This document shows, piece after piece, positions 32,272 to 62,713 of a DNA stretch of 64,000 nt. The stretch is from a virus: positions 17,138 to 81,137 of the IMG/VR virus record IMGVR_UViG_3300047546_002559. One strand, 5' to 3'. How positions within the stretch are numbered: the stretch's first letter is position 1; each line of letters opens with the position of its first letter. Below the pieces are notes generated by a model, which saw nothing but the letters and a program-made list of their open reading frames with translations, was not told where the DNA came from and did not search any database. The position numbers and the translations under genes were made by a program.

Positions 32272-35200
32272 TAGCGGCGCTCCTTATTAGAGCGTTCCTT
32301 GGCTTCAATTTTTGCAATAACCATATTGGCGATAGCTTCTGGCGATTGATTAGTTCCGTTTATTTCAAATGAATAGTAGTTTGTTGTGTTTCCGCCTCCC
32401 GAAGAAACTGCAGAAACTGGACGCATGCTTGTCGTGTCTCCGATTCCAGGCCCTGGTACAACATGAAGGTGGCGATTTGCCATACTTCCGTGGAACTCGG
32501 CAAATCCGCCATTTGCATGCACAAGCTTTGCGTATTGACCAAGATTCTGTCCGATTAGGTCGTATGCAGCACCGGTGGCATGGTCTGAACTTGGAGAGCC
32601 AAGTGCATAATTTCTGAGGCTTGACGTTATTGTCCTCTTTCCGGTTAGCTGCCCATTCATTGCAGCATGGCGGGCCATTGTTTGAGACAGTTTGCTTGTA
32701 GATGTATCGCCGATGCGCCCTGCTCGTGATGTAGATGTATCTCCACTATCTGGAGGTTTTAATTCACCAGTCTGAGAGTTGTACTTGAGCCCCTTTGTCC
32801 ACCAGTCAGGACCGGCAGCTGGACCAGTAAATGCATCCTTAACTGCTTTATTGAAATTATCTAGTGCTGTTGCGATATCGCCAGTTGCATTGACAAGCTT
32901 ATTTAGCTCTGTTTTGTCTTGTTGACCTACTGTAAGCCCCTGGAAAGCCGGATTGAGGGCAGCAAGTGCGGCAGCTGGGTCTTCTGAGTTAAGTGCTTCT
33001 TCAAGTGGGCTTAGTCTAAATCCTGCAGCATTTGCTCCAGCAGCAGGCCTTTGGCCATAGGCGGACAATTGCTTCAGGAATTTATCCTTATCTTCGGGAC
33101 TCATTGATGCAATCGCGCCCTCAAGTCTCTTTGTATCAACAGTCATACCCCTGTCGGCAAGAATTCCGCGAATTTGAGTTCCAGCTTCTGCTGCGACTCC
33201 TGTATTTATTTGCTGTTGTGCTTGCTGAAATAGGGGATTATTTAAGAAGAACTGTGACATGCCTTCAAATTCTTGGTTTTTACCAAATATTCCCTTATCT
33301 GCACCTTGTCCAAACATTTCATTGAATGCACCAAATGCTTTAAATGCATCACCACCAGATGCAGCCAATATTTGCGAGAAAACCTGCTCCATACCGGCAT
33401 TAACAGCACCCATTTTCGTGGCTTCGGAGCCTTTGCCGCGAAGAACATCTCCAACTTGGCGCATATTTTGATTTAGGGCCTGCTGTGCTTCCTTCTGCTC
33501 TCTATCCTTCTTAAAAGGATTTGCACCAGCGAGGAATATATCAGTTATTGCAGCATTTAGTTGGTCTTTATTTTTCTTAAGATTTTTTGTAAACTTTCCT
33601 AATAGTGTATCGTAATCGAGTGTTGCATCATAAAGATTTACGCCCATAGTTTGGGCAAGTAATTCAAGTTCTGCAGTACTTTTGCCAGTTGCTCTAGATA
33701 GTGCATCAAGTCTTTTTGCGTTTACAGCATCTATTTTTGCATAGTCGTCTCTGAGGCCGCCTTCTTTAAAAATTTCATCTATCGTAGTCCCACCGGCGGC
33801 ACGCATCGCCTTTTTTTGGTCAGCAGTAAGACCCTTAGCGCTCTGTGTTCTAAAATAGGCGTCGAGTGTTTGTTGCTTGCGATTATGATAATCGTACTTT
33901 ACTGAACCATCTGTTTGTTTTTCGCCGACCACTCCTGCAGCCTCTAGTGATGAAATTATGTCAAGTCGTGCTTGTTGTGCTTTTTCTGACATGGTTTTAC
34001 CCATTGTCAAAAATGATGCAGTAGCTCCGACTAGTGATTCACCACGTTCCTGTCTTTGTTTATTCATCTGCATATTTCCAATAGCAGAGCTTGTGGCTGT
34101 TTGATAAAGGCTAGTGAACTGCTCTCTTACGGCAGCACGCGCCTGCTTCATATTTTCTTTTCCTTTATTTATGGCGCCCATAATTCCACCAAAAACAAGA
34201 CCAATAGCCGCACCAGCAATCGCTGCCTGTGGTCCGAACATCGCACCAAGTGAAGCACCGCCCGCGGCACCGGAAAGCGCACCCTTCATCGCGCCCTTTG
34301 CCTTCATCGCGCCACCAATGCCAGCAACGGCAAGTCCTGCACGTGGGTCAAATTGGGATACTGTTGCGCCTAGCGCCATTGCTCCACGCATCTCTTCTGG
34401 CGCATACTGGCTCATGAGGCCAAGACCCATGCTTGTGCCCATACGGCCCGTCATACTGCCAGCAAATTTTTGGTTGTAGGCTTGTCCAAATTTTGACTGG
34501 CTTCTCGTAACCCTATTCATTCCACGCTTATAGTCAAGCTTTGCAGCCATAGTTCGCAAGCGTCCAACTTTTTCACCACCTGGAGGGGCAATTATCTGGT
34601 CACGCCTAGCCCGAAGTTGTGCTTCTTGACCAGCTATGTCATAGAACTCGCCTTTTTCCCTGTCAAAACCCGCAGAATTAAAATATGCCATGGCGCCTTT
34701 GTACCCACCGGCTGCTCGCTTCATGCCATATTTAACCTCCTGGAGCCCGCGTGAACCTGCGAGTTTTACACGCCTCGCATCATTGGCGATTCCCTGCCCG
34801 ATGCCGACTGGGCGCGGCTCATTTTTGTACTGAGATACGGCACCCTTTGTGCGCAAAACTTTTTGGATTATCTGTTCTCTATCTGTTTTCGGAGTTAAAC
34901 CCGTAATCCCTCTACCTGTCGCTATCGAGTGAAGCTCATCCATGGAGCGTCCACGCAGTGACTGTTCCGCCCTAAATCTTGCGCTCTTAAGGAGGTTGTA
35001 GTTTGGATTTGGTACGGTTGTTCCACCCGGCCCTCTCATTGTTGGGTTTGCATATGGGTCGGCTGGCTGACCAAATAGTGCATACCCAAGACCGCGCCCA
35101 GTCATCTTAAAATCTCTATAGTTGTCTCGTCTACGCGTATCTATGTCACTGTATTTGACATTAAGACGGCTGCCAATTTTTACGCTTTTGCCAAATCGCG

Positions 35201-37085
35201 CATAATTATCTCTACTTATGTCTTTTATGTTTGAGTAAAGTGGCCTGCTTGGGTATACACCCATTGGCATGGTCATGCCTGGCGCTGCGTAGCTTCCGCT
35301 ACCCCCGCCGTAAGCGCTTCCGTATGTTCCACGTCCACCAGATGACAAAGCTGTTGTGCCGTACCTGGCCGGGAGCGGAACTGGTCCGGGCCCACCAGCA
35401 AGCGTTGTACCATTGCGTGTCATTGGTCCGCCAGGCATGCCAACACTGACATTTGTTGCAGTGACTTGCATGTTTTGGGTAGTCATGCCAGCTTTCGGCA
35501 TTAATTTACCCTTGACGCCAGCCATTCCCCTTCCAAGAACGCTGAATCCGAGGATGGGTGCGAGAGCGCTAGCAAAACCCTTACCTGCACCAGCAGTGAA
35601 TATGCCAGCAATCATATCAAACACCATTGTTAAGCCAGAAACAAGGTCATTGATAAATGGCAACATGTCCATGAACATCTTCTTTGTCTTCATGAAGAAA
35701 TTAGACAGTGAATCAATTAATTTGCCGATTCTGTTTCCAAATTCAACAACAGTGTCTTTATTCTCAACAAGAAGGTCCTTAAATAGATAAAGGTTGTCTG
35801 AACCACGCTTAAGTGCTTCCCACACTGGTTCAAAAGCTTTATATAGAACTTTTGCGCCCTCTATGAGCGGGCGAAGTCTGTCCAAGAGCATGTCCCACCC
35901 ACGCCTAAACCGTGAAAACCAGTCACCCATTTTGTCGAATAACCCAATAGCTCCTGGAAGATAATTTCTAATCATCTTCACAAGCCAGTTCGATGCTTTT
36001 TCTATGGCACTAGAAAAATTGTTTATAACGCCCTGTGTTCCGAAGCTGTACATGACTGCTCCGAGAATGCGCTGCATGTCGCGTCTAATAACATTGAAAA
36101 CCTTGTCAAAAGCAACCTTGAGTGGTTCCAGGAACTGGTCACCAAAATCAGCAAACTCACCCTTAACCCTGGTCATGTAGCCCTTGAGTTGACTTATTAG
36201 GGTGTTATTTACTGCGTCAAACTGGCCAGTGACGCCGCCCTTTTTAGCCAACTCACCAGACATAAGTAGGCTCTCAAATTGCTTCTTTGTCTTTACATTT
36301 GCCTTTTTAAGCGCCTGCTCCATTTCTGGACCAAGCTTTTTAGCCTCTGTAATGACGTCGGATATGCCCTTCTTCTTGTCTGAAAGCGCAGCTATAACTA
36401 TTGATACCTGCTCTAAGCCCTTGGCTGGGTCTTGACCAGCAGAACCAAAATCCATAAGAGCTTTCAGAGCACCCTGGCTTTGATTTATTTGAGCTACGTT
36501 CATTGATTTTGACATATTTCCATATGCCTTATTCAGTGCCTCAACGCCAAGTGTTGCTAGGGCTGCATCACTTTGTAGGTTGCGCATACCCATGCGCGTC
36601 TGATTCATTGCTGAACCAAAAGCCGGTGCACCCTTTCCCCTGTACGCAAAAATCGCAGCTTGTTGCTCTCTTATTGCAGCGCTCGCAGACGCCAGGGCAA
36701 CAGCCGCACCCGCAGCGCCGGCGGCTAACATATGCATAGCACTTCGGTATGTTTTTACCAAGAAGTTTCCTGCTGCAAACAGTGCGTGGATAGCAATCAT
36801 CGAGGCACCGAGCGCTGCCATTTCTATGATTACGCCCTTAATTGCCATTCCAAGGAACTTGGTAAGGCTCTTTCCGGCCATTTTTGCGCCGGCATCTATG
36901 AAGTCAAAGCTGCGTTTCCAGCCCTTTGTAACGCTTTCAAGATTTCTCTGCCCTAAAGCGGTGCCTCTTCCGCTTGAAAGTTTGTTGAGACGTTTTTGCA
37001 GGACGCCTAACTCGGCAATAGCACGACGTATTTCGCCAGTCTTAGCGTCAAATTTAATTTTTACTTTGACTACTTCGTCTGCCAT
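32271..37085 (-). CDS. Tape measure protein with C-terminal M15-like peptidase domain
   Basis: A protein of 1604 residues, consistent with a tail roughly 240 nm long if the usual 1.5 Å per residue rule applies to most of it. It has a helical N-terminus, hydrophobic Ala/Gly-rich segments (for example IKGVIIEMAALGASMIAIHALFAA and GAAIGLVFGGIMGAI), and a basic centre. Near the C-terminus, SDHATGAAYD at 1500-1509 matches the M15 zinc-peptidase S-x-H-x-x-G-x-A-x-D motif and HLH at 1539-1541 supplies the second His motif. So the tip should digest peptidoglycan during DNA entry. The shared E/W part of the M15 motif is replaced by RHLHVV, so activity is probable rather than proven. Start and stop overlap neighbouring genes. 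Confidence 0.88.
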   Translation of the reverse strand: MADEVVKVKIKFDAKTGEIRRAIAELGVLQKRLNKLSSGRGTALGQRNLESVTKGWKRSFDFIDAGAKMAGKSLTKFLGMAIKGVIIEMAALGASMIAIHALFAAGNFLVKTYRSAMHMLAAGAAGAAVALASASAAIREQQAAIFAYRGKGAPAFGSAMNQTRMGMRNLQSDAALATLGVEALNKAYGNMSKSMNVAQINQSQGALKALMDFGSAGQDPAKGLEQVSIVIAALSDKKKGISDVITEAKKLGPEMEQALKKANVKTKKQFESLLMSGELAKKGGVTGQFDAVNNTLISQLKGYMTRVKGEFADFGDQFLEPLKVAFDKVFNVIRRDMQRILGAVMYSFGTQGVINNFSSAIEKASNWLVKMIRNYLPGAIGLFDKMGDWFSRFRRGWDMLLDRLRPLIEGAKVLYKAFEPVWEALKRGSDNLYLFKDLLVENKDTVVEFGNRIGKLIDSLSNFFMKTKKMFMDMLPFINDLVSGLTMVFDMIAGIFTAGAGKGFASALAPILGFSVLGRGMAGVKGKLMPKAGMTTQNMQVTATNVSVGMPGGPMTRNGTTLAGGPGPVPLPARYGTTALSSGGRGTYGSAYGGGSGSYAAPGMTMPMGVYPSRPLYSNIKDISRDNYARFGKSVKIGSRLNVKYSDIDTRRRDNYRDFKMTGRGLGYALFGQPADPYANPTMRGPGGTTVPNPNYNLLKSARFRAEQSLRGRSMDELHSIATGRGITGLTPKTDREQIIQKVLRTKGAVSQYKNEPRPVGIGQGIANDARRVKLAGSRGLQEVKYGMKRAAGGYKGAMAYFNSAGFDREKGEFYDIAGQEAQLRARRDQIIAPPGGEKVGRLRTMAAKLDYKRGMNRVTRSQSKFGQAYNQKFAGSMTGRMGTSMGLGLMSQYAPEEMRGAMALGATVSQFDPRAGLAVAGIGGAMKAKGAMKGALSGAAGGASLGAMFGPQAAIAGAAIGLVFGGIMGAINKGKENMKQARAAVREQFTSLYQTATSSAIGNMQMNKQRQERGESLVGATASFLTMGKTMSEKAQQARLDIISSLEAAGVVGEKQTDGSVKYDYHNRKQQTLDAYFRTQSAKGLTADQKKAMRAAGGTTIDEIFKEGGLRDDYAKIDAVNAKRLDALSRATGKSTAELELLAQTMGVNLYDATLDYDTLLGKFTKNLKKNKDQLNAAITDIFLAGANPFKKDREQKEAQQALNQNMRQVGDVLRGKGSEATKMGAVNAGMEQVFSQILAASGGDAFKAFGAFNEMFGQGADKGIFGKNQEFEGMSQFFLNNPLFQQAQQQINTGVAAEAGTQIRGILADRGMTVDTKRLEGAIASMSPEDKDKFLKQLSAYGQRPAAGANAAGFRLSPLEEALNSEDPAAALAALNPAFQGLTVGQQDKTELNKLVNATGDIATALDNFNKAVKDAFTGPAAGPDWWTKGLKYNSQTGELKPPDSGDTSTSRAGRIGDTSTSKLSQTMARHAAMNGQLTGKRTITSSLRNYALGSPSSDHATGAAYDLIGQNLGQYAKLVHANGGFAEFHGSMANRHLHVVPGPGIGDTTSMRPVSAVSSGGGNTTNYYSFEINGTNQSPEAIANMVIAKIEAKERSNKERR

Positions 37086-49993: not shown

Positions 49994-51307
49994 CTAGAAG
50001 ATTATAGAAGCCCTCTTGCGCTGCGGCAACCCTAGCCCAGTCAAAAAGGTAAAAGCCCCAACAGCGGAGTCAACCTGGTCATCATGGTTTGCTGCTTCAG
50101 GAAATGAAGAAAATTCATCGAGCCAGTCGGTGAGCCACGCAGAGCGGACTAACCGAACATTTCCATTAGCGGCTGCGGCAGCGAATGGCCTAGCCCTGGT
50201 CACCTTATCTCCGGTCGGCCTCATGGCGCCAAAGTCATAGCCCGGAACTACGTATCTGGCATATTGGTCAACAAGTGCCTTGCCGGAAGAACCAGGTTCC
50301 TGCTCCATCCTTATTGAAACTCCGTACCCATCGTCTTCCGCGGTCTCGGCAATCAACTGTTCGACCTTTTCACCCCTAACGCGGGCTTTCTTTACGTCCA
50401 AGATGTATGCGATTCCGCCGTCAAATAGCATCAAGGTACCCACCGTCCAGTCTGGGTCTGGATTCCCGGCATGTGGTTCCGTGGCGGCAAGGTCCCAAAA
50501 CCTGACAACCCTGGCAGAATTAGTGATTAGGGGTATCTCGTCTGGGTCAATAATTATGAAAGATTCCCGCTGGAAAAGGCTTCCCAGGGTGGTCGACCAC
50601 CAGTCGCCCTCCTCTAGCCGCCTTCTTTCCACGGGGTCCAGGGCGGATAGGGCCTGACGGTAGGAATCAGCGTCAATTCCGGGGTTATCCTTGAGTGTGG
50701 ATGGGACAAAAACCCTTCCGGCTTCCTTGCCTTCTACAATAAACCTCTGCCGGACCCAGTTGGGGGCGGGGTTTGACGCGGCCCTCATTCTGAGCGGAAC
50801 CTGGGCAATCGGGCCGCTGGCTGGACGACGGAGTCGGGAGAACAGGTATCTGTAGTCAGATTCACGTATTTCGGTGACCTCATCCATGCCTATGAACTGG
50901 AATTCAGAGCCCTTATAGCGTAAATAGTCATTAACATTATTTAGATATCCAAAAGAAATGCGCGCTCCAGAGGGGAAGGTCGCCACGAATGTGTTGTTAT
51001 TCCAGTGAACATCGTCGTAGTTGCTCATCCATGACTTAAAGCGGTCCATTAGAGCGCCGGGCAGCGATAGGTCAGCAAATGTGCGGCGGAAAAGAATTGC
51101 CGAGTAGTTAGGTACATCTACATACTGGAGAGCCGCCATGAGAAGAGCAGAAGATTTACCCCCACCGGCCGCTCCCCCGAAAAGGCCCTCCAGGGAGTTG
51201 GTTCTCAGGAATACTTTTTGGTTTATCGATGGCTCTTCGGGGCAGTATGGCGGCATTTTAGGGCTGAGATACTCCAGTACTTCTTCCCAATTTGCTTTTC
51301 CAGCCAT
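49994..51307 (-). CDS. terL: Terminase large subunit
   Basis: A protein of 437 residues from ATG 51307 (the frame is open to a TTG at 51331; neither has a good ribosome site, and TATAAT lies 4 bases before the ATG). The ATPase has Walker A GGAAGGGKS at 44-52 and Walker B FIGMDE with D142, E143; SNPAP supplies the coupling motif. The RNase H-like nuclease has D272 in RFWDLAAT, then HDDQVDSAVGAF with D409, D410 and D413. It packages DNA through the portal and cuts concatemers. Oddly, it lies on the opposite strand and is divergent from the portal gene, rather than in the usual terminase-portal series. No small terminase is recognisable nearby. Confidence 0.92.
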   Translation of the reverse strand: MAGKANWEEVLEYLSPKMPPYCPEEPSINQKVFLRTNSLEGLFGGAAGGGKSSALLMAALQYVDVPNYSAILFRRTFADLSLPGALMDRFKSWMSNYDDVHWNNNTFVATFPSGARISFGYLNNVNDYLRYKGSEFQFIGMDEVTEIRESDYRYLFSRLRRPASGPIAQVPLRMRAASNPAPNWVRQRFIVEGKEAGRVFVPSTLKDNPGIDADSYRQALSALDPVERRRLEEGDWWSTTLGSLFQRESFIIIDPDEIPLITNSARVVRFWDLAATEPHAGNPDPDWTVGTLMLFDGGIAYILDVKKARVRGEKVEQLIAETAEDDGYGVSIRMEQEPGSSGKALVDQYARYVVPGYDFGAMRPTGDKVTRARPFAAAAANGNVRLVRSAWLTDWLDEFSSFPEAANHDDQVDSAVGAFTFLTGLGLPQRKRASIIF

Positions 51308-51376
51308 AAAATTATAAGAACCAATCAACAAGACTCTTTGTGCATCAGAGCCAACTTATGCGCTACTGTATCGTAC

Positions 51377-51650: not shown

Positions 51651-53750
51651 ATGGGTTGGAACTCGCCTCAGAATAAAGACATAAATTCCCAGTCCCGCAA
51701 GGACATTGGGTATGGAGCACCAATCTCCGTCAACCCCTCGCTGGCTGGCAAGGCATATCGCGACTCATGGGATATTGAGCGCGCCTACCGAGAGGGAATG
51801 TCAAAAATCACCTGGGTTAATAGGTGTATCGACGCTATAGCCGGCAACCAGGCTAGATTGCCGATAATTCTCAGAAAAGATAATTCTAACCAGGGTGAGA
51901 TTGTTCGTGGCAGAGAAGCAAACCGCTCTCCGCTTCTTGAATTGCTAAACACAAAGGCCAATGTTGGAGAAAACTCGTTCATTTTCCGTTATCGACTTTC
52001 CGCACAACTTCTCTTGGGAACACGCGGAGCGTTCATTGAAAAGATTTATGGCCGAGACGGTCGAATTATTGGGCTAAATCTTTTGCCGCCACAATCAACT
52101 GCCCCAATCCCGGACCCAAAAACATTTGTATCTGGATATGAAGTGCAGATGCCTTACGGGGAAAAAAAATTTCTAAAGCCTGAAGACGTTGTTTGGGTAA
52201 GACGCCCGCATCCGCTTGACCCATATCTGTCCCTGACTCCGCTAGAAGCCGCAGGAGTGGCTATTGAGATTGAAAATCTTGCCAAATTGTATAACAGAAA
52301 CTATCTGCTCAATGACGGCCGGCCTGGCGGATTGCTTGTCGTTAGAGGCGCTATTGACGAAGACGACAAAGAAGAACTGAGAAGCAGATTCCGTGGAAAT
52401 CTCGCAAAAGCGGGCCATACAACAGTTATAGCCGCAGATGACGGGGTCGACTTCGTTGACACTTCCGCTAATCCACGCGATGCTGCTTACATTCAGATGC
52501 GCCAGATAACAAAAGAAGAAATACTTTCTTCGTTTGGCGTCCCTGAATCGGTAATCGGCAATGCTGCCGGAAGAACATTCAGTAATGCAGCAGAAGAGAT
52601 TCGTGTTTTCTGGATGGAGACGATGCTCCCCCATTTGGAACCATTGGCACGCGCGCTTGACGAGCTCGACGAAAAGTATTATTTAGACTTTGATACATCG
52701 GAAGTCCCCATCCTCATGCTCTATAAGCAGGAGCGAGATAAGTATCTGCTCCAGGAGTTTCAGTCTGGCCTGATTAGTGCCAACGAATATAGAATCGGTT
52801 CTTCGCGTAAAGAGGTAGAAGCCGACCTAGCCGATTCATTGCTTCAGAACCCAAACCTCATCCCAATTGCAAACACGAAAAAGAAAATGGAAGAGGGGCA
52901 AACGCAGATTCCCGGGGCACCAGGTATGCCGGGCATGCCGGGTATGCCAGGTATGCCGCCAGGTGCGCCACCAGGAATGCCACCGGGGGCACTACATCCG
53001 GTTGGGCCAGCTGGAGAACCAGTACCGCTTGACGTCAACACAATGGGCGGTGCGCTCGCAGAGTCAGCGCAAGAAGGACAGCTTGCTCAAACCACAGTTC
53101 CGCCAGAGGCCATGGGGGGGGTGCCGCAGACAGCCATGCCGCCAATGCCGACAACGGCAGCTTCTGCTCCCGAATCGGAAATTGAAACAAAGTCAAATGA
53201 CTTAGAAAAAGAAGAGCTTGACCGTACAGAGCAGTCAATTGAAAGATGGTCAAACATTTTGGCGCGCGGCATGGAAAGACTGATAGAGCGCCAGCAGCGC
53301 GTTGTACTTGAAAAAGCAAGCGGCGCAAGGGCAAAGAAAGCGCTTATGCACGGAACGCTTGACATCGAGTCCGTTTTGTCAATAGATACATGGAACAAGC
53401 AATTTGAAGACGACATCAAGCCCGTTATCTCCTCAATTATCAACGATTCTTTCGAATCCCGAGTCAACGCAGCCTCGGAAAAAGGCTTAAGAATCAAGGC
53501 AATGCCGGCGAAAGACGTCAGGGCCATGGTTGATGCCCACGTTTCAAGGATTAAGAAGATTAACGAATCTCATTTCAACGAAATCAACGCGATGATGCTG
53601 AAGTCGTTCGAATATGCAGACGAAGACAAGAGGTTCTCTTTCTTCCGCGACAGCCTTGTCGAGATGTTTACAGACTTTTTTGCTCATCAGCAAGAATCAA
53701 TCGCGGAACGCGAAGCTCGGTCCGCGTGGGGATTTGGGCAGACCGTTTAG
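51651..53750 (+). CDS. Portal protein
   Basis: A protein of 699 residues. The N-terminal 380 residues match phage portals: AYREGMSKITWVNRCIDAIAGNQARLPIIL, NSFIFRYRLSAQLLLGTRGAFIEKI, LLPPQSTAPIPDPKTFVSGYEV, PEDVVWVRRPHPLDPYLSLTPLEAAGVAIEIENLAKLYNRNYLLNDGRPGGLLVV, and ITKEEILSSFGVPESVIGNAAGRTFSNAAEEIRVFW, the stem/wing block. Residues about 420-450 are a PGMPGMPGMPG-type low-complexity segment, then an acidic Ser-rich part. The C-terminal 180 residues (about 510-699) add a charged helical region with SIERWSNILARGMERLIERQQRVVLEKASGARAKKALMHG. The family is certain; the C-terminal extension is longer than usual and probably has a special role, for example in assembly or cleavage. Confidence 0.9.
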   Translation: MGWNSPQNKDINSQSRKDIGYGAPISVNPSLAGKAYRDSWDIERAYREGMSKITWVNRCIDAIAGNQARLPIILRKDNSNQGEIVRGREANRSPLLELLNTKANVGENSFIFRYRLSAQLLLGTRGAFIEKIYGRDGRIIGLNLLPPQSTAPIPDPKTFVSGYEVQMPYGEKKFLKPEDVVWVRRPHPLDPYLSLTPLEAAGVAIEIENLAKLYNRNYLLNDGRPGGLLVVRGAIDEDDKEELRSRFRGNLAKAGHTTVIAADDGVDFVDTSANPRDAAYIQMRQITKEEILSSFGVPESVIGNAAGRTFSNAAEEIRVFWMETMLPHLEPLARALDELDEKYYLDFDTSEVPILMLYKQERDKYLLQEFQSGLISANEYRIGSSRKEVEADLADSLLQNPNLIPIANTKKKMEEGQTQIPGAPGMPGMPGMPGMPPGAPPGMPPGALHPVGPAGEPVPLDVNTMGGALAESAQEGQLAQTTVPPEAMGGVPQTAMPPMPTTAASAPESEIETKSNDLEKEELDRTEQSIERWSNILARGMERLIERQQRVVLEKASGARAKKALMHGTLDIESVLSIDTWNKQFEDDIKPVISSIINDSFESRVNAASEKGLRIKAMPAKDVRAMVDAHVSRIKKINESHFNEINAMMLKSFEYADEDKRFSFFRDSLVEMFTDFFAHQQESIAEREARSAWGFGQTV

Positions 53751-53881: not shown

Positions 53882-56800
53882 ATGCCATCTGAACTGTTCG
53901 AATATAAGTCAAGTTCGCTTGGCAACTCCCTCTCATCCAAGGGTGGAAACATCAACCTGGACGAGGCTCAGGGCATAGTTGAGTGTTTCGTGGCCGGTAT
54001 TGGGAATAAGGATTCGGTTGGTGACATCGTCGCAAGCGGCGCATTCACAAAGAGCCTTCAGCGCCGTAAGCCACGCGTTGTTTGGGGCCACAGCTGGAAT
54101 GACCCGATTGGCAAAGTTCTAGAGATTTACGAAGTTCCTAACACAGACAACCGCCTACCGCTCAAGATGAAGATGGCTGGGATTGGCGGTCTTTTCGCTC
54201 GCGTCCAGTTCAACCTGAATTCAGAAAAGGGCCGCGAAGCCTTTGCGATGGTTGCCTTCTTCGGCGAGGAACAGGAATGGTCAATTGGCTACAAGACGCT
54301 GCGAGCCCAGTTTGACCAGAAGTCTCAAGCAAATGTCATCTACGAACTAGAGCTTTATGAGGTTTCGCCAGTTCTCCACGGAGCAAACCAGCTAACCGGA
54401 ACAATTTCGGTTAAGTCGGACGAGCTCGCAGACAGAATGTCTGCAGTAATGGAAGATAGCGGAAGTGCTATCGATAAGGCCGAAATTGAGAAGCAATTGG
54501 CCGCGATTCTCGGTGAAAAAGTATCACTCATGGACGTAAACGATGACGAGGTTACGTTCGCTCGCAGAATGCCCAACGGCGAAGTTGGCCGCTACAAGTG
54601 CGGCTTTAGTGGCAGCCGTGGTCGGTATATGTTCGGCGCCCCAGAACCGATTGTTGTTATGCCAATGCGTAGGCCAATCGCGCCAGCGGCAAATATGCCG
54701 ATGGCTGGACCTAGCATGCCTGCCAACGAGCCACAAAGAGTCATCCGACCATCGCAGATGCCCTCAATGCCTGTGGCGATAAAGCCAGGCGAGAATGGCA
54801 ATCGCATGGTTCCGCTCCCGCCAGTGGAGTACGAAGATGGTGGCAAAGACAGGGAAGAGCCAGAGTTCGACCCCAATAACCTAGACAGGGAAGAGGCCGA
54901 CCTCAGGGATGCCCTTTTAAAAATTGTGAAGCGTCACGGTCGTTTTAATGAGGATTCAACTGGTGTTTACGCGGCATACAGCTCGCCCGAGGAGAACGAA
55001 GTTGCCTCAATCGGAGTTAAGTGCGCAAACTGTGTTTTTTACCAAGGTGGAAATTCCTGCAAGATAATCGCAATGGATGTAGAGCCAGAAGGCAAGTGCA
55101 GATTTGCGGTTATCCCGAAGGGTGTCGTTAAGGGAAGCACGGCAGATACCAAGAATTATGAGCTCGATGAGGAGTTCGCGGAAGAGGACTACCTTGCCGA
55201 GCTTGAAGTTAAGTACCCAGGGGAACTAGCTGTTGCAGCTGTTCGTGGAGCAATAGGAAGACGCCGCAAGAAGCGTCGTAAGTTTAAACTTCTTGGCGAG
55301 TTTGGTTCAAAACAGGACGATTTTGATTTTGACGACAAGCCATACCTGTTGCCAGTTGTTCCGCAGTTTGCATTCCAGGTAAAACAGGCGCTTGACCCAA
55401 TATTTGATTACCACAATGTTGACTCTTTTGTCGATGTAAACGGAATTGTCATCACATCTGGCGTTAGCTTTGAGTTGATTGAGGCAATTGACACAGCTGT
55501 CGAAAATCTAAAAAAAAAATCTCTAACTGAAAACGACATAGAGTGGAAGGCGGCTAGTTACCGCCTCGGTCGTGCTATCGGAAGTCGCCTAATTGACCGT
55601 CCAAACATCGGCGGTGGACGTACGCGTGGAAGATTCTTCACTTCAATAGGCGCTGAAGACTTCGACCCATTTACAGCCCGTGATGCGAATCTAAACGGAA
55701 TCGTTGGTGAAGGTTTGTTCCTTCGTGGTATAGCGCTAGCAACACCGGACCCCACCCCAGACGGCCCTGGCTCCATAAGGAACCCAAAGCCATCACCACG
55801 TCAGCTTTCAAAGCCGGAATCGGAAACAGTAGCCCGTATTGAGAATGCTGCCGGAAAGCTTTCATCGGGGAAAATAGAGCTAGACCTTCCACGATTTGAT
55901 GACCCGGATATCGATTCGGCAGAAAAGTTTGGTGCAGCAGAGTCGCGGCGCGATGAACTTCAGGGCGTACTTGATGGTGCTACCGACCCAGAACAAATAA
56001 AGAAGCTAGAAAGAGCAATTTCAGAACTCGACAAGTACATGAACCGCGTCGAGAAGTTGGCCGAAAGCGAGATGGCTCAGTCTGAGAAGCCAAAGAAGAA
56101 GCCTGCAGCTGGAAAGGTAATAAAGGCCGGTCAGAAACTTTCTAGCGGATATGCAAAATACCTAGATAAGCCGAAATCAAAGCGTTCAATCGATGAGATA
56201 AACAAGTTTGATGGCCCGATTAGCGCTGCCTTGTCGTCTGGGAAATTGCCAGATAAAGCAGAGATTCCAGAAGATTCGCCGATACTGTCGGAAATGTATA
56301 AGCGGATGGCTGATGAAATAATCGCTGTTCTACAAGACCTGATTGATAACCCCGAAAAGGCAAAACAATGGAAGATGCCGTGGCGAAATCCTGAAATTTT
56401 TGCCAGAAACCCAACGCGTAATCGTGTTTACCAGGGCATGAACCAGCTTGCACTTCTTCTGACTGCACAAAGTCGTGGATATACAACAAATAGATGGGCC
56501 GGAAAGACGCAGTGGCAGAAACTTGGTGGAAAACTAAAGCCAGGAGCTAGCGCACGCGGCGTTTCAATCCTCGTGCCGCGTGAGGGACGAATTCTAATGA
56601 ACGCAGATGGCCAGCCGGTTGAGACTGGCCGCTACTACGTTGTTCAGACTGTTTACAACGTCGATGATGTTGCTGGTCTGCCAAAGAAGTTCTACGAGGT
56701 TGAGGATAGCGCCATCAACCAGGAAGAGCGCCTACAGGACTTGGAAAACGTAATTCAGGAAATAGGTCCTAAGTTTGTAGAGTCTAAAGGTCAGCAGGCT

Positions 56801-59800
56801 TTTTATCGCCCCATGACCGACAGCATCCACATGCCGGCGTTTGACCAGTTTGAAAATGCACTCGCATTTTATTCAACAGCAATGCACGAGACAATTCACT
56901 GGACTTCGCACCCAACGCGACTAAATAGAACTCTTGGCAAAGAGTTTGGTGATGAACAATATGCTTTCGAGGAGCTTATTGCCGAAATAGGTTCAGCATT
57001 TGCTCTTGGCTCAATGGGTCTCGAGCCAACAGTCCGCGAAGACCATCTTCTGTATCTAAATAGCTGGCTAAAGAAGCTCAAGTCAGACCCACTTGCGATA
57101 CATAGGGCAATAGTCCAGGCACAGCAAGCAAATGACTATCTTCTTAACCGTTCGGCGACAATGCGAAGACTTGCTGGCATACCTGACGATGAGCGTAAGG
57201 GCAAGGACGATATATGGTTCGAAGTTCCTATGCTCGCCGGCTATGAGGATATTGAGCCAATAAAGCCAACAACAACAATAACTGGCCCACTAGAGGACCT
57301 GCTTGACTCAGAAGCATGGGATGAATTTGTCCCAGATTCACCAAATCTGAGTATCGCGGAGCGCGAACTTCGTTCATACGACGTAGCGCCAAATGCGCCG
57401 TCAAAGAACAAGGCAGGAGTTGTTATTACTCCGTCCGGAGCGCTTGCAAGCGGTAAAAAGGCTGGGAAAATCAAGGGTACAAAGCCTGGCGTTCCAGAAA
57501 TCGACAGAATTGCTGAAGATGTATCGCTAAAGCTTGCATTTGGTCTGGCTAATGAGCCCACAAATGAGCAGCGCGACATTATGGCTGTTGCTCTATCGCT
57601 TATCCACGGCAATAATCCTGCAATTTTAAGTGTTCTTGCTGGTGCTGGAACTGGAAAAACGACAACGCTTAAAAGCATCGCGTGGGCTCTTCAGAGAGAA
57701 TTCGACCTATGGCCGGAAGGTGACCCAAGAAGGGCGGAACAGCTTGCTTACCTATCGGATAGATATGGAATTGATTTCAGCAAGATAAAACCAGAGAAGA
57801 TTGCTGATGCAGTAACTGAGTTAGCAAAGAATAATAAAACCGGAAATCTTTACTATACGGTTTTCAACACAAAAAACCAACTAGAAGCCGAAACAGAATT
57901 CCCACGAAATACGGGTATTGCTACTACGGACAAGCTCTGGCAGTGGTCGCTCCGTCTTGGTCAGGGTGACAAAAAGTATGGACCGGGCATGCGCAGAAAA
58001 ATGGGCATGCTAAACAAGAGCCGAGAGAGCAAAAAGTCCATGCGTAGAAATCCGGCATGGAAGAGCGAAGAAGAGACGCCAGGCGTCGAAAAAATGATTG
58101 GAAAAAATTTCGTCAGAGAAAAATTTGACGGAACAACCGAAACGTTTGTTGGTGAGGACCCTGGTTTTGAGGCTCTTGGCTGGACAATGCTTCAAAAAGG
58201 TGACGACTTTGCTGAGCATCTTGGCCTAGAGAAATGGCCAGATGTTGTAAAAAGAAAGAAAATGAAGCCAGACGTGGATGCTTCCGGCAGGCCTATTCGT
58301 GATGAAAAAGGAAAAGTAAAGAAGTCAGAAGTAGAAGTAGAGGGTTTTGAACTTCCAAACGGAACGTTCCTTGAACTTTCCGAAATGGGCGACCTTCTAT
58401 CTAACGCCCTTAAGCGCTGGGGTCTGTCCAAAGAAGAAAAAGTTACAGCACAACACTTCATGCCTCCAAAACAGAGACTTGAAGACATGGATACGCCGCG
58501 TGGAAAGGACAATCAACCCACAGGCGTTGACAGCATTCTCACCGAAGAGCAAATTCCTAAAAAATGGATTGAGGCGGTCCAGTCAATCGTGGACGAGATT
58601 GCAGATGGCGACTCTAACCTGCTACCAACAATGGAACTTGTGTCTAAATTCTGGATGATGACAGACCCTGACCTGAGAACAGACCCAGGTTTAATTACGC
58701 ACTCTTCAGCTCAAACAAGAGTAAAAGTATCCGTTCCATCATCGCTACGCGAAGGCGATACATACGTTTATGACGGCGAAGAGTGGGTTGTTACAGGATT
58801 AACCAAAAAGGCTGGGAAAACATCAAGTGCTACCTTACGTAAAAAGATGGCATCAAAGGAAAATCCCCTCGGTGCATTCTTGCTAGACGAGGTGCAAGAC
58901 TCAAACGAGGTTCTCGAAACAGTTCTAGATAGGAATAGGGATAAGCTCCCTATTATTCTTGTCGGAGACGATAGACAGGCTGTCTATGCATTCCGCGATG
59001 CAAAGAATATTCTGGCGTCACTTGATTCAGAGTACTCACAGGACATTACAGAGTCGTTTAGATATGGCGAAACTGTAGGTCATGCCGCAAACCTGGTTCT
59101 TGGAGCACAAAATGTTCATCTGCGTAGACAGGGTGTTAAGCAACAGCCGTGGAAGCACGTTAAGGGCCAGGCGCAAACTGTTATCAATAGGCAGTTTGAC
59201 CCACTATTGCCAGAAAAAGATAGGCTCGGCAATAATCCGGTCGATGAAATAGATGATGCAACACGCCAGATATTGATAGCCGATATAGAGAAAAAATATT
59301 CTACTCCAGAGAAGAAGCTTGACCTGCTGTCACTAGATAGACCAGCACAGGACAAGGCCTTAAAGGAGCTTAGGGATACGCTTTATGGACCAAAAGCTGG
59401 TCAAATAGTAGATAGATATGCAGAGGCCGATAAGGGCAATCTGCCAACGATGATTCTCTGTAGAACAAACGGTGAAATAATCAACGAAGCTCTAAAGTTT
59501 ATAAATATAGTCATAAATAGTAAGGCTGTTGAGCGTGATGAACGAGGCATGCCAAAACTACCTGAAGTAATTATTCCAGCTAGCAAGTGGGAGCAGCTTC
59601 TTACATTTACTAAGCACCTTGACTTCATAATGCGTTCACCTGCAAAGCAGCAAGAATACATAGCAAGATTTGGTAAGCCAGAGATGTCATCATGGCTCGG
59701 ACCGATTTGGACACAGGGCACCTTGCAGAAAGCTCTCAATCAGTCAAAGTATCAACAGGCGCGCAGCGCATACAAACTGATAATGCAGCCGCCAAAGAGC

Positions 59801-62713
59801 GACCCAACTGCTCCGCCACTTGGCACTCGCGGCATGCTTGAACTTTTGCAGGGAACGATAGTTAGAAGCGTTCATGAAAAGGGCAAAGCTAAAGGCAAAG
59901 AAAAAATTGAGATAATCCCAGCTGTTTTGTTACCAGAGCGCAAAACGATGGAGCTTGATAACTGGGCGGTTGGCATCGACCAGGTAAGAGAAATAGCCGG
60001 TAGGCAAAAGTCAGCATGGAAGTCTTCGCCAACCCAGAGAGAAAAACTATTTATTATCCCGAATGTCGATGACACCTACAAGCAGGCTGTATATGCCGCA
60101 CTTGACATAGAAGGTGGGGACGATAAGAGACCAGGAAAGCCAACTGGAAGAATAATAATAACTGGAGACGGAGTCGATACAGGTCGCCCAATCGATATGC
60201 CAGATGGGTCGCAGAGGCCCAATACTCCGACTGGTGGTCGCGGTTCGAACAACGGTAGATACCGTAGAGACCTCGAGAAAGCAATAATTAAACTTGGCCT
60301 GCAGGACAAAGTAAAGCCAATGGCTGAAGCCGAACGCGGTTTTAGAAAAGAAGGCGAAGCTCAGCGCAGGCTTTATGACGGTTTCGTCATTGAAGGCGCA
60401 ACGATAGAGGAAAGCACTGAGATTCTAGGACAATTAGCACAAGCGCTTCGAGATTCCGCAAAGACCGCAGGTGGAGATGTTGAAATTACAACAATGCAGC
60501 TTTCGAAGGGTCGCGAATCTAGATTCGTTGCAGTTGCGGAGGACCTCAGCGACCCAATTTCAAATATCCCGGAAAAACTGGCGCAGGGTGAAGCTGGCGT
60601 CAGCTATATGGAAGAAGGCAACCTAGTTCACGTTGCATTCTCGCGTGCAAAAGAACAGCTCGACCCGGGCACTGCCGGATTTGTTTACTGGCTACATGAC
60701 CAGCGCACAAAAGCGGTGCGAGAAGCCATAACGCAGGCTGTAAAAGATGGACATATTCCGCCAGAGCTCGATAAGGGCGCATTTAGCGACGATGGCGGCA
60801 TTGAGTTGCCGGAATGGTACAAAAAGCTCAACTCTATGTCTCTAGAGGAGCTAAAGGATGGATTCCCGGCTCGTCCAACAGACAAAAAAGAAGACGAAGA
60901 CATAACTGTCCCATCACCTGTTGATGGTGGAGAACCCGATGATTTTGAACCAATCGTTACGGAAATTGACGAAGATGATTACGAAATGGGGGATACTGAC
61001 GTCCCGAGTGACGAAGGTGAAAAACTACCAACATTCGATGATGATGAAGAAATTATGGACGATGGCGAACTTCCGGAAGTCCCAGGCATGCGCCTATCCA
61101 GTGGCGCGACTCCTGGTGCGGATAGGCGCATAGCTCGCAGAAATAGGCGCATAGCAAAGAGCAATTTGTACTCAAATAGCATGAGTGCACAGCAGCTTGC
61201 TGGAATAAGAATTAGCGGCGACCCAAATTCAAGCAAAAATAGACAAGCATTAGAGTTCGCAATGCAAGCATGGGACGGTGTACGTCGTCGTGGCATAGCT
61301 ATTGACGTTGACGACGATACGCTTTCGGTAGCAGAGCGTCAGTCTAGGACGCGCGGTGCCATGCAGAGTGTCGGTGCGGCCATGAGGGGGCGCAAGGATA
61401 GGGTCCGCATTGGTAAGGTTAGTGATAATGGAAGAAATGAAAATCCATCGGCGGAAACATGGATGCTTTCTGTTGACAAGCTTGCTGACACAATAAGGAT
61501 TCCAACAGAATTTACGTCAAGAGAAAACTCCGAGGGTGGCTCGACAATCCGCTGGACCCAGTCGCGCCCTGCAACGAGGGAAGAAATTGGTAAATTGCTT
61601 GGCCTTAGCCCTGCCGACGCAGAAAAGCTAAAGGACCCAGATGCAGGCATAAACCATGACGCAGTACGTCTTCTCATTGCGGAACTAGGCAAACAGGAAG
61701 ACCTTCCAGCATGGAGATACTTTGCTCCTGTTAGCGCCGATGAGGCAAGGCGCATAACCCCTTCACCCGAAGGCGATATTGCGGAAAATATCCCTCAGGT
61801 AGATTTGGCTGCAGAAAATGCTGGCCGTGCAAACATGCGAGATAGGTTTATTATCGAAACCTTCGGCAAAGACGCATATCCGCACTGGTTTGACGTCGAG
61901 GAAAACCAGTCGATGACGCCAGATGAGTACGTCCAGCTTGGAGAGATAAGTGAAACGTCTAAATTCCGTGCCTCTGGTCGCTTCTACCCAGATAGCGCAA
62001 TCAAGGGCGACTCGGAAGCAGAAGTTGACCTTTACGGCGAATCACTTGACGCGCTTGTACCAGCAGAGGGTGCAGTAGATGCAACAGGCGATGTGCTGAG
62101 AAACGACAAGACTTCAATAGAAGATTTCGACCTTGACTCTCTGATTGATTATCTAGGAATAGACAAAAAAGAGTGGAAGAAGGGCCTGCAGGAAAGACTT
62201 TCTGCAGCTTTTGGCACTGATTCGGTCGGAATCAACGATGAATGGAGAAGAAAAGGCATCCCAACAGCGACGGTTGCCCACATGATTAGAACGGGCGTTC
62301 TGCCAGATGCAGGGTCGGTATGGAAAGAGGCAGATGCCGGGCAAAAATTCGACGACGAGATGAAGAGGCCAAAGTATGCGGTCTACGAGGCTTTGACTGA
62401 ATTTATTGACAAGAGCTTCCCTAATTCCAGACTCAATAACAGAGAAAACAGAAACAAGATAATTGGCGCCACGGACATGGGGTACACCCTGACCAACGCG
62501 GCCAAGAATCGCGGTTCTGTCTGGAGCCCTGGGAAAGGGAACGAGCCACGGTTCTCTCGCGGAGAAATGCAATCAATGGTTGACAGGTTCAATGAAATAT
62601 TTGGAACTAACCACACACTTGATGACATCTTCAGCGACGAGCAACTGAGAACGGCCAAGGAAAGAGTCGAGTCCGGGAATACCCTTTCGGGCAAGAAAAA
62701 GCCAAAGGCTTAA
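53882..62713 (+). CDS. Giant polyprotein: S78 prohead protease, ArdC antirestriction domain, UvrD/FBH1-like helicase
   Basis: A protein of 2943 residues. (1) 1-180: S78 prohead protease with H70 (VWGHSW), S134 (EWSIGY) and E160 (LYEVSPVLHGA). (2) 381-406: C381, C384, C393, C406 in a CxxC-x8-C-x12-C layout, like high-potential iron-sulfur proteins. (3) 601-612: EF-hand-like DANLNGIVGEG. (4) About 800-1108: ArdC antirestriction, an ssDNA-binding half (NPTRNRVYQGMNQLALLL, WAGKTQWQKLGG) and metallopeptidase HETIH at 1002-1006 with EELIAEIG (1030-1037). (5) About 1210-2260: SF1 UvrD/FBH1-like helicase: Walker A AGAGTGKT (1253-1260), LLDEVQD (D1669, E1670), GDDRQAVYAFRDA, and VHVAFSRAKEQL near 2249. 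(6) About 2405-2943: unknown. LSSG/LASG occurs at 660, 753, 784, 1188 and 2405, mostly between modules. The protease role is firm; processing and packaging of the rest are inference. Confidence 0.93.
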   Translation: MPSELFEYKSSSLGNSLSSKGGNINLDEAQGIVECFVAGIGNKDSVGDIVASGAFTKSLQRRKPRVVWGHSWNDPIGKVLEIYEVPNTDNRLPLKMKMAGIGGLFARVQFNLNSEKGREAFAMVAFFGEEQEWSIGYKTLRAQFDQKSQANVIYELELYEVSPVLHGANQLTGTISVKSDELADRMSAVMEDSGSAIDKAEIEKQLAAILGEKVSLMDVNDDEVTFARRMPNGEVGRYKCGFSGSRGRYMFGAPEPIVVMPMRRPIAPAANMPMAGPSMPANEPQRVIRPSQMPSMPVAIKPGENGNRMVPLPPVEYEDGGKDREEPEFDPNNLDREEADLRDALLKIVKRHGRFNEDSTGVYAAYSSPEENEVASIGVKCANCVFYQGGNSCKIIAMDVEPEGKCRFAVIPKGVVKGSTADTKNYELDEEFAEEDYLAELEVKYPGELAVAAVRGAIGRRRKKRRKFKLLGEFGSKQDDFDFDDKPYLLPVVPQFAFQVKQALDPIFDYHNVDSFVDVNGIVITSGVSFELIEAIDTAVENLKKKSLTENDIEWKAASYRLGRAIGSRLIDRPNIGGGRTRGRFFTSIGAEDFDPFTARDANLNGIVGEGLFLRGIALATPDPTPDGPGSIRNPKPSPRQLSKPESETVARIENAAGKLSSGKIELDLPRFDDPDIDSAEKFGAAESRRDELQGVLDGATDPEQIKKLERAISELDKYMNRVEKLAESEMAQSEKPKKKPAAGKVIKAGQKLSSGYAKYLDKPKSKRSIDEINKFDGPISAALSSGKLPDKAEIPEDSPILSEMYKRMADEIIAVLQDLIDNPEKAKQWKMPWRNPEIFARNPTRNRVYQGMNQLALLLTAQSRGYTTNRWAGKTQWQKLGGKLKPGASARGVSILVPREGRILMNADGQPVETGRYYVVQTVYNVDDVAGLPKKFYEVEDSAINQEERLQDLENVIQEIGPKFVESKGQQAFYRPMTDSIHMPAFDQFENALAFYSTAMHETIHWTSHPTRLNRTLGKEFGDEQYAFEELIAEIGSAFALGSMGLEPTVREDHLLYLNSWLKKLKSDPLAIHRAIVQAQQANDYLLNRSATMRRLAGIPDDERKGKDDIWFEVPMLAGYEDIEPIKPTTTITGPLEDLLDSEAWDEFVPDSPNLSIAERELRSYDVAPNAPSKNKAGVVITPSGALASGKKAGKIKGTKPGVPEIDRIAEDVSLKLAFGLANEPTNEQRDIMAVALSLIHGNNPAILSVLAGAGTGKTTTLKSIAWALQREFDLWPEGDPRRAEQLAYLSDRYGIDFSKIKPEKIADAVTELAKNNKTGNLYYTVFNTKNQLEAETEFPRNTGIATTDKLWQWSLRLGQGDKKYGPGMRRKMGMLNKSRESKKSMRRNPAWKSEEETPGVEKMIGKNFVREKFDGTTETFVGEDPGFEALGWTMLQKGDDFAEHLGLEKWPDVVKRKKMKPDVDASGRPIRDEKGKVKKSEVEVEGFELPNGTFLELSEMGDLLSNALKRWGLSKEEKVTAQHFMPPKQRLEDMDTPRGKDNQPTGVDSILTEEQIPKKWIEAVQSIVDEIADGDSNLLPTMELVSKFWMMTDPDLRTDPGLITHSSAQTRVKVSVPSSLREGDTYVYDGEEWVVTGLTKKAGKTSSATLRKKMASKENPLGAFLLDEVQDSNEVLETVLDRNRDKLPIILVGDDRQAVYAFRDAKNILASLDSEYSQDITESFRYGETVGHAANLVLGAQNVHLRRQGVKQQPWKHVKGQAQTVINRQFDPLLPEKDRLGNNPVDEIDDATRQILIADIEKKYSTPEKKLDLLSLDRPAQDKALKELRDTLYGPKAGQIVDRYAEADKGNLPTMILCRTNGEIINEALKFINIVINSKAVERDERGMPKLPEVIIPASKWEQLLTFTKHLDFIMRSPAKQQEYIARFGKPEMSSWLGPIWTQGTLQKALNQSKYQQARSAYKLIMQPPKSDPTAPPLGTRGMLELLQGTIVRSVHEKGKAKGKEKIEIIPAVLLPERKTMELDNWAVGIDQVREIAGRQKSAWKSSPTQREKLFIIPNVDDTYKQAVYAALDIEGGDDKRPGKPTGRIIITGDGVDTGRPIDMPDGSQRPNTPTGGRGSNNGRYRRDLEKAIIKLGLQDKVKPMAEAERGFRKEGEAQRRLYDGFVIEGATIEESTEILGQLAQALRDSAKTAGGDVEITTMQLSKGRESRFVAVAEDLSDPISNIPEKLAQGEAGVSYMEEGNLVHVAFSRAKEQLDPGTAGFVYWLHDQRTKAVREAITQAVKDGHIPPELDKGAFSDDGGIELPEWYKKLNSMSLEELKDGFPARPTDKKEDEDITVPSPVDGGEPDDFEPIVTEIDEDDYEMGDTDVPSDEGEKLPTFDDDEEIMDDGELPEVPGMRLSSGATPGADRRIARRNRRIAKSNLYSNSMSAQQLAGIRISGDPNSSKNRQALEFAMQAWDGVRRRGIAIDVDDDTLSVAERQSRTRGAMQSVGAAMRGRKDRVRIGKVSDNGRNENPSAETWMLSVDKLADTIRIPTEFTSRENSEGGSTIRWTQSRPATREEIGKLLGLSPADAEKLKDPDAGINHDAVRLLIAELGKQEDLPAWRYFAPVSADEARRITPSPEGDIAENIPQVDLAAENAGRANMRDRFIIETFGKDAYPHWFDVEENQSMTPDEYVQLGEISETSKFRASGRFYPDSAIKGDSEAEVDLYGESLDALVPAEGAVDATGDVLRNDKTSIEDFDLDSLIDYLGIDKKEWKKGLQERLSAAFGTDSVGINDEWRRKGIPTATVAHMIRTGVLPDAGSVWKEADAGQKFDDEMKRPKYAVYEALTEFIDKSFPNSRLNNRENRNKIIGATDMGYTLTNAAKNRGSVWSPGKGNEPRFSRGEMQSMVDRFNEIFGTNHTLDDIFSDEQLRTAKERVESGNTLSGKKKPKA

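Follow-up and report, generated by a model that had tools for sequence, protein, structure and literature searches.

We analysed a 64,000-nucleotide stretch of viral DNA (positions 17,138 to 81,137 of the IMG/VR record IMGVR_UViG_3300047546_002559), hereafter called the window, in which one gene, P1, encodes a chain of 2943 amino acids (aa) that starts with a prohead protease domain and continues with anti-restriction and helicase modules. Short sequences of the form [LF][SA]SG stand between these parts, and we propose below that P1 may carry its own packaged cargo and release it by cleavage. The features of P1 are the following.

53882..62713, plus strand: P1 polyprotein gene, 2943 aa, single ATG frame with no internal stops
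53975..54406, plus strand: S78 prohead protease domain, aa 32-175 (H70, S134, E160), Pfam Peptidase_S78 (1.7e-11)
55022..55099, plus strand: four-Cys cluster, Cys381/384/393/406, conserved in relatives
55510..55519, plus strand: A10 run from codon 543, candidate programmed slippage site
55559..55765, plus strand: shared D-x-D-x-D-G-type element, aa 560-628, with related stretches in P3 (see below) and other giants
55859..55870, plus strand: LSSG motif, aa 660
56138..56149, plus strand: LSSG motif, aa 753
56231..56242, plus strand: LSSG motif, aa 784
56291..56566, plus strand: ArdC-N domain, aa 804-895, Pfam ArdcN (1.3e-16)
56738..57109, plus strand: MPTase-PolyVal zincin, aa 953-1076, with HETIH at 1002-1006, Pfam (2.6e-40)
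57443..57454, plus strand: LASG motif, aa 1188
57548..60655, plus strand: superfamily 1 (SF1)/UvrD-type helicase, about aa 1223-2258, Pfam UvrD-helicase (2.1e-9)
61094..61105, plus strand: LSSG motif, aa 2405
61106..62710, plus strand: C-terminal module, aa 2409-2943, without Pfam family; AlphaFold 2 (AF2) model with a predicted local distance difference test (pLDDT) score of 81

The original prediction, made from the letters of the window, had described one uninterrupted chain of this length holding S78 protease residues, a four-Cys cluster, an ArdC domain with HETIH and an SF1 helicase. The frame is indeed continuous, and the parts are supported by conserved residues and by the four Pfam matches, each of which exceeds its curated cut-off; only the placing of HETIH has to be amended, as ArdC-N is present and HETIH itself sits in the zincin domain behind it. 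This succession of ArdC-N and a zincin with HExxH predicts anti-restriction activity. The helicase part has Walker A (1254-1260), Walker B (about 1669), motif III (GDxRQ) and motif VI (Arg 2255), and gave a weak helicase match in the PDB by phmmer (0.0029), while PADLOC returned only GajB-type and other helicase matches, plus one mads_8. A Pfam search of aa 213-659 gave no family above cut-off, and a PDB fold search with the AF2 model of the C-terminal module gave no match at E ≤ 0.001.

A scan of IMG/VR retrieved at least 599 stretches, at least 594 of them encoding an S78 relative, of which the best 80 were used. Among 49 non-redundant long-type relatives, 25 have closed frames of 2,510-3,467 aa and 24 are still open at the end of the locus, and for this reason we regard the long frame as real and not as a product of chance or of a sequencing error, a risk that had been named with the original prediction. 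Two contigs, L050 (= L137) and L028, are interrupted at the A run, near aa 543-551, where sequencing indels are indistinguishable from true variants. Each of the 28 records searched has S78, in no more than one frame (in some as two pieces of it); ArdcN and MPTase-PolyVal were found in 23 and UvrD in 22. The union of protease with ArdC and helicase is widespread. When P1 of the window was aligned with 25 relatives, of which L002 is nearly identical to it, H70, S134 and E160, the three named HExxH residues (H, E, H), the four cysteines and the motif VI Arg are identical in 26/26 rows, and the Walker A Lys in 25/26; the active-site residues of protease, zincin and helicase are thus kept in the relatives.

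The window and its contig end together, and the genes downstream were inferred from relatives such as the 145-kb record G001, whose locus L002 has an S78 part 100% identical to that of the window. Downstream of P1, G001 encodes a 533-aa acidic protein, a second giant open reading frame (ORF), P2, small genes, the major capsid protein (MCP; Phage_capsid match, 1.4e-42) and, farther away, a third giant, P3. Together P1, P2 and P3 occupy 17% of this record. The further giants lie beyond the end of the window, and were out of view of the original prediction; the A10 run, although inside the window, does not figure in it either.

L082:2712-10184: P2 giant ORF of G001, 2491 aa
L096:6337-15180: P3 giant ORF of G001, 2948 aa

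In P1 of the window, LSSG is found at 660, 753, 784 and 2405 and LASG at 1188, with 0.2 occurrences expected from shuffles, and these sites match the regions around residues 660-790, 1188 and 2405 at which the original prediction had placed its cuts. Across the 49 long-type representatives (148,086 aa) the motif [LF][SA]SG occurs 441 times, versus 12.7 in shuffles; it is present in 49/49, with 3-18 copies in each. The counted proteins come from a set of 56 representatives of at least 900 aa, comprising these 49, of which 24 end at the locus edge, and 7 of short type that were not counted. Nine control patterns, made by permuting the letters or replacing one of them, occur only 5-28 times in the same 49 chains, and chance linker composition was rejected, shuffles and controls being far below 441. 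Among the ORFs of G001, the motif is found 5 times in P1, 5 times in P2 and 10 times in P3, and 0-2 times in every other ORF. The window also holds a 1604-aa ORF on the minus strand (32271-37085) with two LSSG matches, which from its start and size we took as tape-measure-like background.

The motif also avoids the recognised domains: in 12 genes of 11 genomes, none of 122 sites falls inside the S78, ArdcN, MPTase or helicase matches, where 16.5 would be expected (P about 2e-8 if the sites were independent, an independence that is incomplete). G013 was left out of this comparison, G014 and G028 are close relatives, as are G020 and G032, and the hidden Markov model stretches cover the helicase only in part. 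Lying between modules, the motif looks like a cut site that would release packaged cargo. The original prediction had the chain cut between its modules, and processing of this kind is likely in view of the motif enrichment, the domain avoidance and the dialects described next.

The residues in and around the core differ between genomes and tend to be shared by the giants of one genome. GLSSG is used in G020 (P1 10/10, P2 4/4) and G032 (P1 8/8, P2 6/6), SLSSG in G028 (P1 8/13, P2 3/3, P3 8/8), and FSSG or FASG in G013 (P1 4/4, P2 3/3, P3 9/13). The dialect of G001 is mixed, with K, A or R before the core in P1, and R in 4/5 sites of P2 and 4/10 of P3. A clade with short P1 proteins (1036-1261 aa), which could have been taken to be without the motif, uses dialects of its own, LRSSG in G031 and GL[ASR]S[ST]T in G027, which are found in P1 as well as in three or four further ORFs, and the idea of a motif-free clade was rejected. 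When the profile of the P1 sites was scored on the sites of the other giants of 12 genomes, the true pairs summed to 116.3 versus a maximum of 101.3 in 20,000 permutations, and when each clade was represented by a single genome, the true pairing ranked first among 5,040 in all three selections made. The ORFs compared were P1 and those that reach 800 aa and hold two or more sites (a 457-aa ORF of G015 with 2 sites is below this size), tail-tape-measure-like ORFs having been dropped by an N-terminal pattern in G001, G014, G022, G025, G027, G028 and G031. P1, P2 and P3 have no overall homology, and a common dialect across mostly non-homologous giants points to one shared reader per genome, which would be its simplest cause.

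Modules are reordered, lost and duplicated between giants, and in one exchange the left breakpoint lies at a motif. The order is S78-ArdC-helicase in the window and S78-helicase-ArdC in G015, G022 and G025; in G021, ArdC is found on a separate 1030-aa ORF with GLSSG sites of its own, a 4807-aa frame of G008 contains two helicase matches, and ArdC was undetected by profile search in G020 and G032. A 160-aa module of G021, with the motif on both sides, is present in both P1 and P2 at 81% identity. In P3 of G001, the module at about aa 493-726, between two motif copies, is an ADP-ribosyltransferase (ART; ADPrib_exo_Tox, 8.4e-8, over cut-off), for which phmmer against the PDB gave nothing (best 1.7). 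This cassette was found in only 4 loci, as two versions. It is 97% identical in nucleotides between G001 and G011 (L284, L286), and the segments on its two sides (130-492 and 744-1033) are 61-62% identical; its left breakpoint is the LSSG at 489, and the right one is near the LSSGs at 723 and 740. Other modules of P3 include a DnaQ-type exonuclease and, in G013, a GNAT and a ParB-type domain, and P2 has a weak Mor-like helix-turn-helix between two motifs (E 0.0014, below the Pfam cut-off).

Between the protease and the cargo, 36 of the 49 long-type genes contain 9-11 consecutive A, all in one codon phase and located at codon 528-601 (the search was limited to codons 480-620), and 36 of all 40 runs of at least 9 A in the 49 genes fall at this position. 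The run is always upstream of the next motif, and its distance to the D-x-D-G element that follows is 53-69 codons in 34/36 genes (28 codons in L198; in L076 the element was not found by pattern). Elsewhere, runs of at least 9 A or T are scarce: the 64-kb window and the 145-kb G001 have one further run each, and G015 has four further ones. A one-base slip in either direction would bring a stop within 9 codons of the run start in 36/36 genes, and at random positions a stop occurs within 8 codons in 35% and 49% of cases for the two slip directions. Genes with programmed slippage of the dnaX type have a conserved slippery run, a nearby stop in other frames and two products; many ribosomal frameshifts, though not transcriptional slippage, also require a stimulatory RNA structure. 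P1 has the slippery run and the nearby stops, and we predict that slippage at the A run yields a protease of about 546 aa beside the long chain.

As to the enzyme that reads the motif, the S78 protease, the canonical protease of capsids, is present in all 28 records and MPTase-PolyVal in 23, so the zincin of P1 is not needed for the motif. As sole reader the zincin was rejected, being undetected in G020, G032, G027, G029 and G031 (records that may be incomplete); in G020, G032, G027 and G031 the motif or a dialect is present all the same. The capsid protein offers a further indication: 9 of 11 MCPs have L[ST]S[RHS]EIK starting at residue 94-95, which we take to be about the place where HK97-type delta domains end or are trimmed. 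The L-x-small pattern resembles the sites of related prohead proteases more widely. Such enzymes cut at ITE (T4 Alt), AXE (SPN3US) and SXE (phiKZ) (PMC5694885), which makes L-x-S a plausible variant. A scan of species genomes gave three S78 loci. Two of them, L324 and L326, on two contigs of one Gammaproteobacteria metagenome-assembled genome, are cargo-free frames of 441 and 447 aa (stop to stop) with an S78 domain 71% identical to that of the window, and each has a single FASG, at 400 or 406, about 40 residues before the C-terminal end, which might be a self-cleavage site. The third locus is an open frame of 1198 aa.

Taking these patterns together, we consider it somewhat more probable than not that P1 is a prohead protease gene that has grown into a cargo carrier, and that its S78 enzyme cuts the giants at L-x-S-G to free cargo for ejection. 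The S78 enzyme would act within the prohead on P1, P2 and P3, tentatively at the bond between Ser and Gly, and would divide P1 of the window into a protease part of about 73 kDa, ArdC with the zincin (45 kDa), the helicase (136 kDa), a C-terminal part (60 kDa) and two small linkers. The freed modules would remain in the head and enter the host together with the DNA, where ArdC would shield the DNA and the helicase process it, and modules of P2 and P3 (ADP-ribosyltransferase, DnaQ-type exonuclease, GNAT and the weak Mor-like helix-turn-helix, in some genomes) would act on the host or on the genome. Additional short protease, free of cargo, would come from slippage at the A run. The more detailed form of this proposal is held more tentatively, at a little under an even chance, namely that one protease heads the cargo chain and reads a genome-specific dialect in at least three unrelated giants, that cassettes are swappable and that poly-A slippage sets the ratio of protease to cargo.

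Several observations weigh against these proposals. In the dialect comparison, the own P1 is the best match in only 6 of 12 genomes; of the remaining rows, four match a neighbour of the same dialect, and for G001 and G013 the best match is a different genome, of R dialect. Giants of one genome are homologous over a stretch in nine pairs, so some of the motif sites depend on one another. Dialect does not predict the MCP site, which is LTSS in F-dialect G013 and is missing from the MCPs of G027 and G031. The A run is missing in 13 of the 49 long-type representatives, and the RNA fold after it, calculated for the window sequence, is nothing unusual (z -0.09), so that the stimulatory structure is absent from the dnaX-type features seen in P1. 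Finally, HExxH is found at residue 486-691 in 30/30 non-redundant P2 proteins, with H603, E604 and H607 invariant in a 28-row alignment, and S78 is therefore not the sole universal protease candidate.

This P2 sequence is the serious rival to S78 as reader: the motif would still be a cut site, recognised by a P2 metallopeptidase with or without the P1 zincin, and S78 would trim capsid proteins only. Zincin self-processing has been proposed for polyvalent proteins (PMC5512222), in line with such a reader. P2, however, matches no Pfam metallopeptidase family and is a putative metallopeptidase only, and both the L-x-S at the MCP delta boundary and the likeness of the L-x-small pattern to ITE, AXE and SXE suggest that the head protease reads a similar site, so that we judge the P2 reading unlikely, at roughly one chance in six. 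Less probable still, with odds we would put near one in ten, is a motif that stays uncut: repeated along the chains, it would be a tag for docking or packaging that a scaffold or core protein recognises, and the chains would be packaged whole as is N4 vRNAP, which is packaged unprocessed (PMC5512222). The residues around the core do co-vary per genome, as they would for any bound peptide, but the sites lie between modules and not in domain matches, and the modules behave as separable units.

It is similarly improbable that ArdC and the helicase act in the infected cell, in replication or packaging, after removal from the protease before or during head assembly and with no injection. SF1 helicases commonly serve replication, as this alternative would have it, but the gene lies among head genes, its cargo is fused to an enzyme working inside proheads, and P3 of G001 contains an ADP-ribosyltransferase module, like the injected T4 Alt. 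A recombination site at the level of DNA, spreading cassettes without any role in the protein, is very improbable, since the breakpoint at LSSG codons and the preference for TCT at both Ser codons (0.46-0.50 versus 0.23 elsewhere) are outweighed by the 176 different 12-mers that encode 353 LSSG sites, which means that selection acts on the protein, and by the dialect kept at the protein level.

The D-x-D-x-D-G element gave a profile match in 11 of 12 P1 proteins examined (three of them weak) and was found by pattern in the twelfth, that of G032. It is clear in P3 of G028 and weak or seen by pattern only in P3 of G001 and G013, G027 and G031 each have it in two further giants, and several records have it in a shorter ORF near the capsid gene; the profile and pattern searches did not find it in P2. 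It may be a packaging, core-binding or Ca-binding element.

The neighbouring genes in the window are the following.

49994..51331, minus strand: terminase large subunit
51651..53750, plus strand: portal protein gene, directly upstream of P1
62842..63999, plus strand: first part of the gene for an acidic Cys-containing protein, which in G001 has 533 aa and is encoded between P1 and P2

The S78 gene thus occupies a slot between the portal and MCP genes, in which other genes, P2 among them, are also found in G001, and a capsid gene was found in 15 of 20 further records. The acidic Cys-containing protein has 523-579 aa and lies between P1 and P2 in each of nine relatives; its G001 copy gave no Pfam family over cut-off and no PHROG match. 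For P2, a PDB fold search with aa 1-880 gave no match at E ≤ 0.001 (the model is weak, pLDDT 70), a BFVD search gave one match at this threshold, to an uncharacterized protein of an uncultured phage (8.2e-35), and the first 900 aa had no match at E ≤ 0.001 among 50,697 phage records. In Pfam and PHROGs, no single-subunit RNA polymerase family was matched by the P1, P2 and P3 proteins searched, so that they differ from an N4-like virion RNA polymerase. WhiB is encoded in 14/14 records searched (for example at G000:C1:10054-10245), which indicates that the hosts of these large phages are probably actinobacteria.

The original prediction knew of no named system of this form, yet a class that accommodates P1 exists, the polyvalent proteins defined in 2017 by Iyer et al., in which ArdC-N and zincin MPTases are hub domains and for which injection into the host has been proposed (PMC5512222). 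P1 fits this class, as it joins several disparate biochemical activities (protease, ArdC-N, zincin and helicase) in one chain and, like phage polyvalent proteins, adjoins late virion genes, with the portal upstream and the capsid downstream in G001. It also extends two statements of that paper. The assemblin-like peptidase is described there as "always" C-terminal, an observation and not part of the definition, whereas the S78 domain of P1 is N-terminal (aa 32-175 of 2943), and ArdC-N is described as "rarely" found in phages, whereas here a phage ArdC is joined to a prohead protease. For the cut motif, the dialect and the slippage site of the P1 family, we found no counterpart in the passages of PMC5512222 on these proteins.

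The cutting of capsid and internal, ejected proteins by one prohead protease at a short motif is known from T4 gp21, phiKZ and SPN3US gp245, with T4 Alt cut by gp21 and SPN3US head proteins by gp245 (PMC5694885, PMC10052503). In these phages, as described there, the protease and its cargo are made as different proteins and Glu is the last residue of the motif, whereas P1 has both in one chain with [LF][SA]SG or L-R-S-S-G. The N-terminus of DarA, a packaged anti-restriction protein of bacteriophage P1, is trimmed by the prohead protease Pro (PMC12810830), so processing of anti-restriction cargo has precedent; the Dar proteins are separate proteins, and the passages on them in that paper describe no protease-cargo chain, in contrast to the fusion seen here. 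The Microbacterium EK phages and Burro have, next to the portal gene, a protein of more than 4,400 aa that is virion-associated and likely processed (PMC7302621). It is credited with "Few informative conserved domains", and the account of it in that paper names no S78, ArdC, helicase or cut motif. The same source describes fused actinophage head genes (MuF-protease, protease-scaffold-capsid and MuF-VIP2), and none of the fusions it describes in those passages joins a protease to ArdC and helicase.

The nearest cultured S78 relatives are those of Gordonia and Brevibacterium phages (Bendigovirus, Cantarevirus), the matches covering about 75% of the domain query at 40-44% identity. Unlike P1, the S78 proteins of GMA6 (484 aa), Cantare (417 aa) and DalanDe (1633 aa) have no [LF][SA]SG. 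The last of these, gp27 of Gordonia phage DalanDe (L103:8602-13503), is a reversed fusion, with a C-terminal S78 domain and an N-terminal extension of more than 1,100 aa without Pfam family. In Streptomyces phage Gilgamesh, gp48 (L106:17979-31853), of 4,624 aa, is two genes after a portal-MuF fusion; it gave no Pfam family at 0.01 and has no repeated motif of the P1 kind. A search of the openly licensed literature, not aimed at slippage in prohead protease genes, turned up no account of this system, neither of a cleavage dialect common to several proteins nor of cassettes exchanged at motif boundaries in chains of this type, and if shown at the bench, the features of the P1 family would define a distinct system.

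Freshwater-phage ADP-ribosyltransferases have been read as toxins against eukaryotic predators (PMC6802176), and the domain in G001, placed in a giant ORF between motifs, offers another view beside that one. If the proposed cleavage is true, the cutting of polyvalent proteins becomes testable with one enzyme and short peptides, and the motif might serve as a portable tag for packaging and release. Injected phage proteins are hard to recognise from sequence, and a cleavage dialect, if true, would allow the packaged cargo of these widespread, uncultured phages to be read off their genomes.

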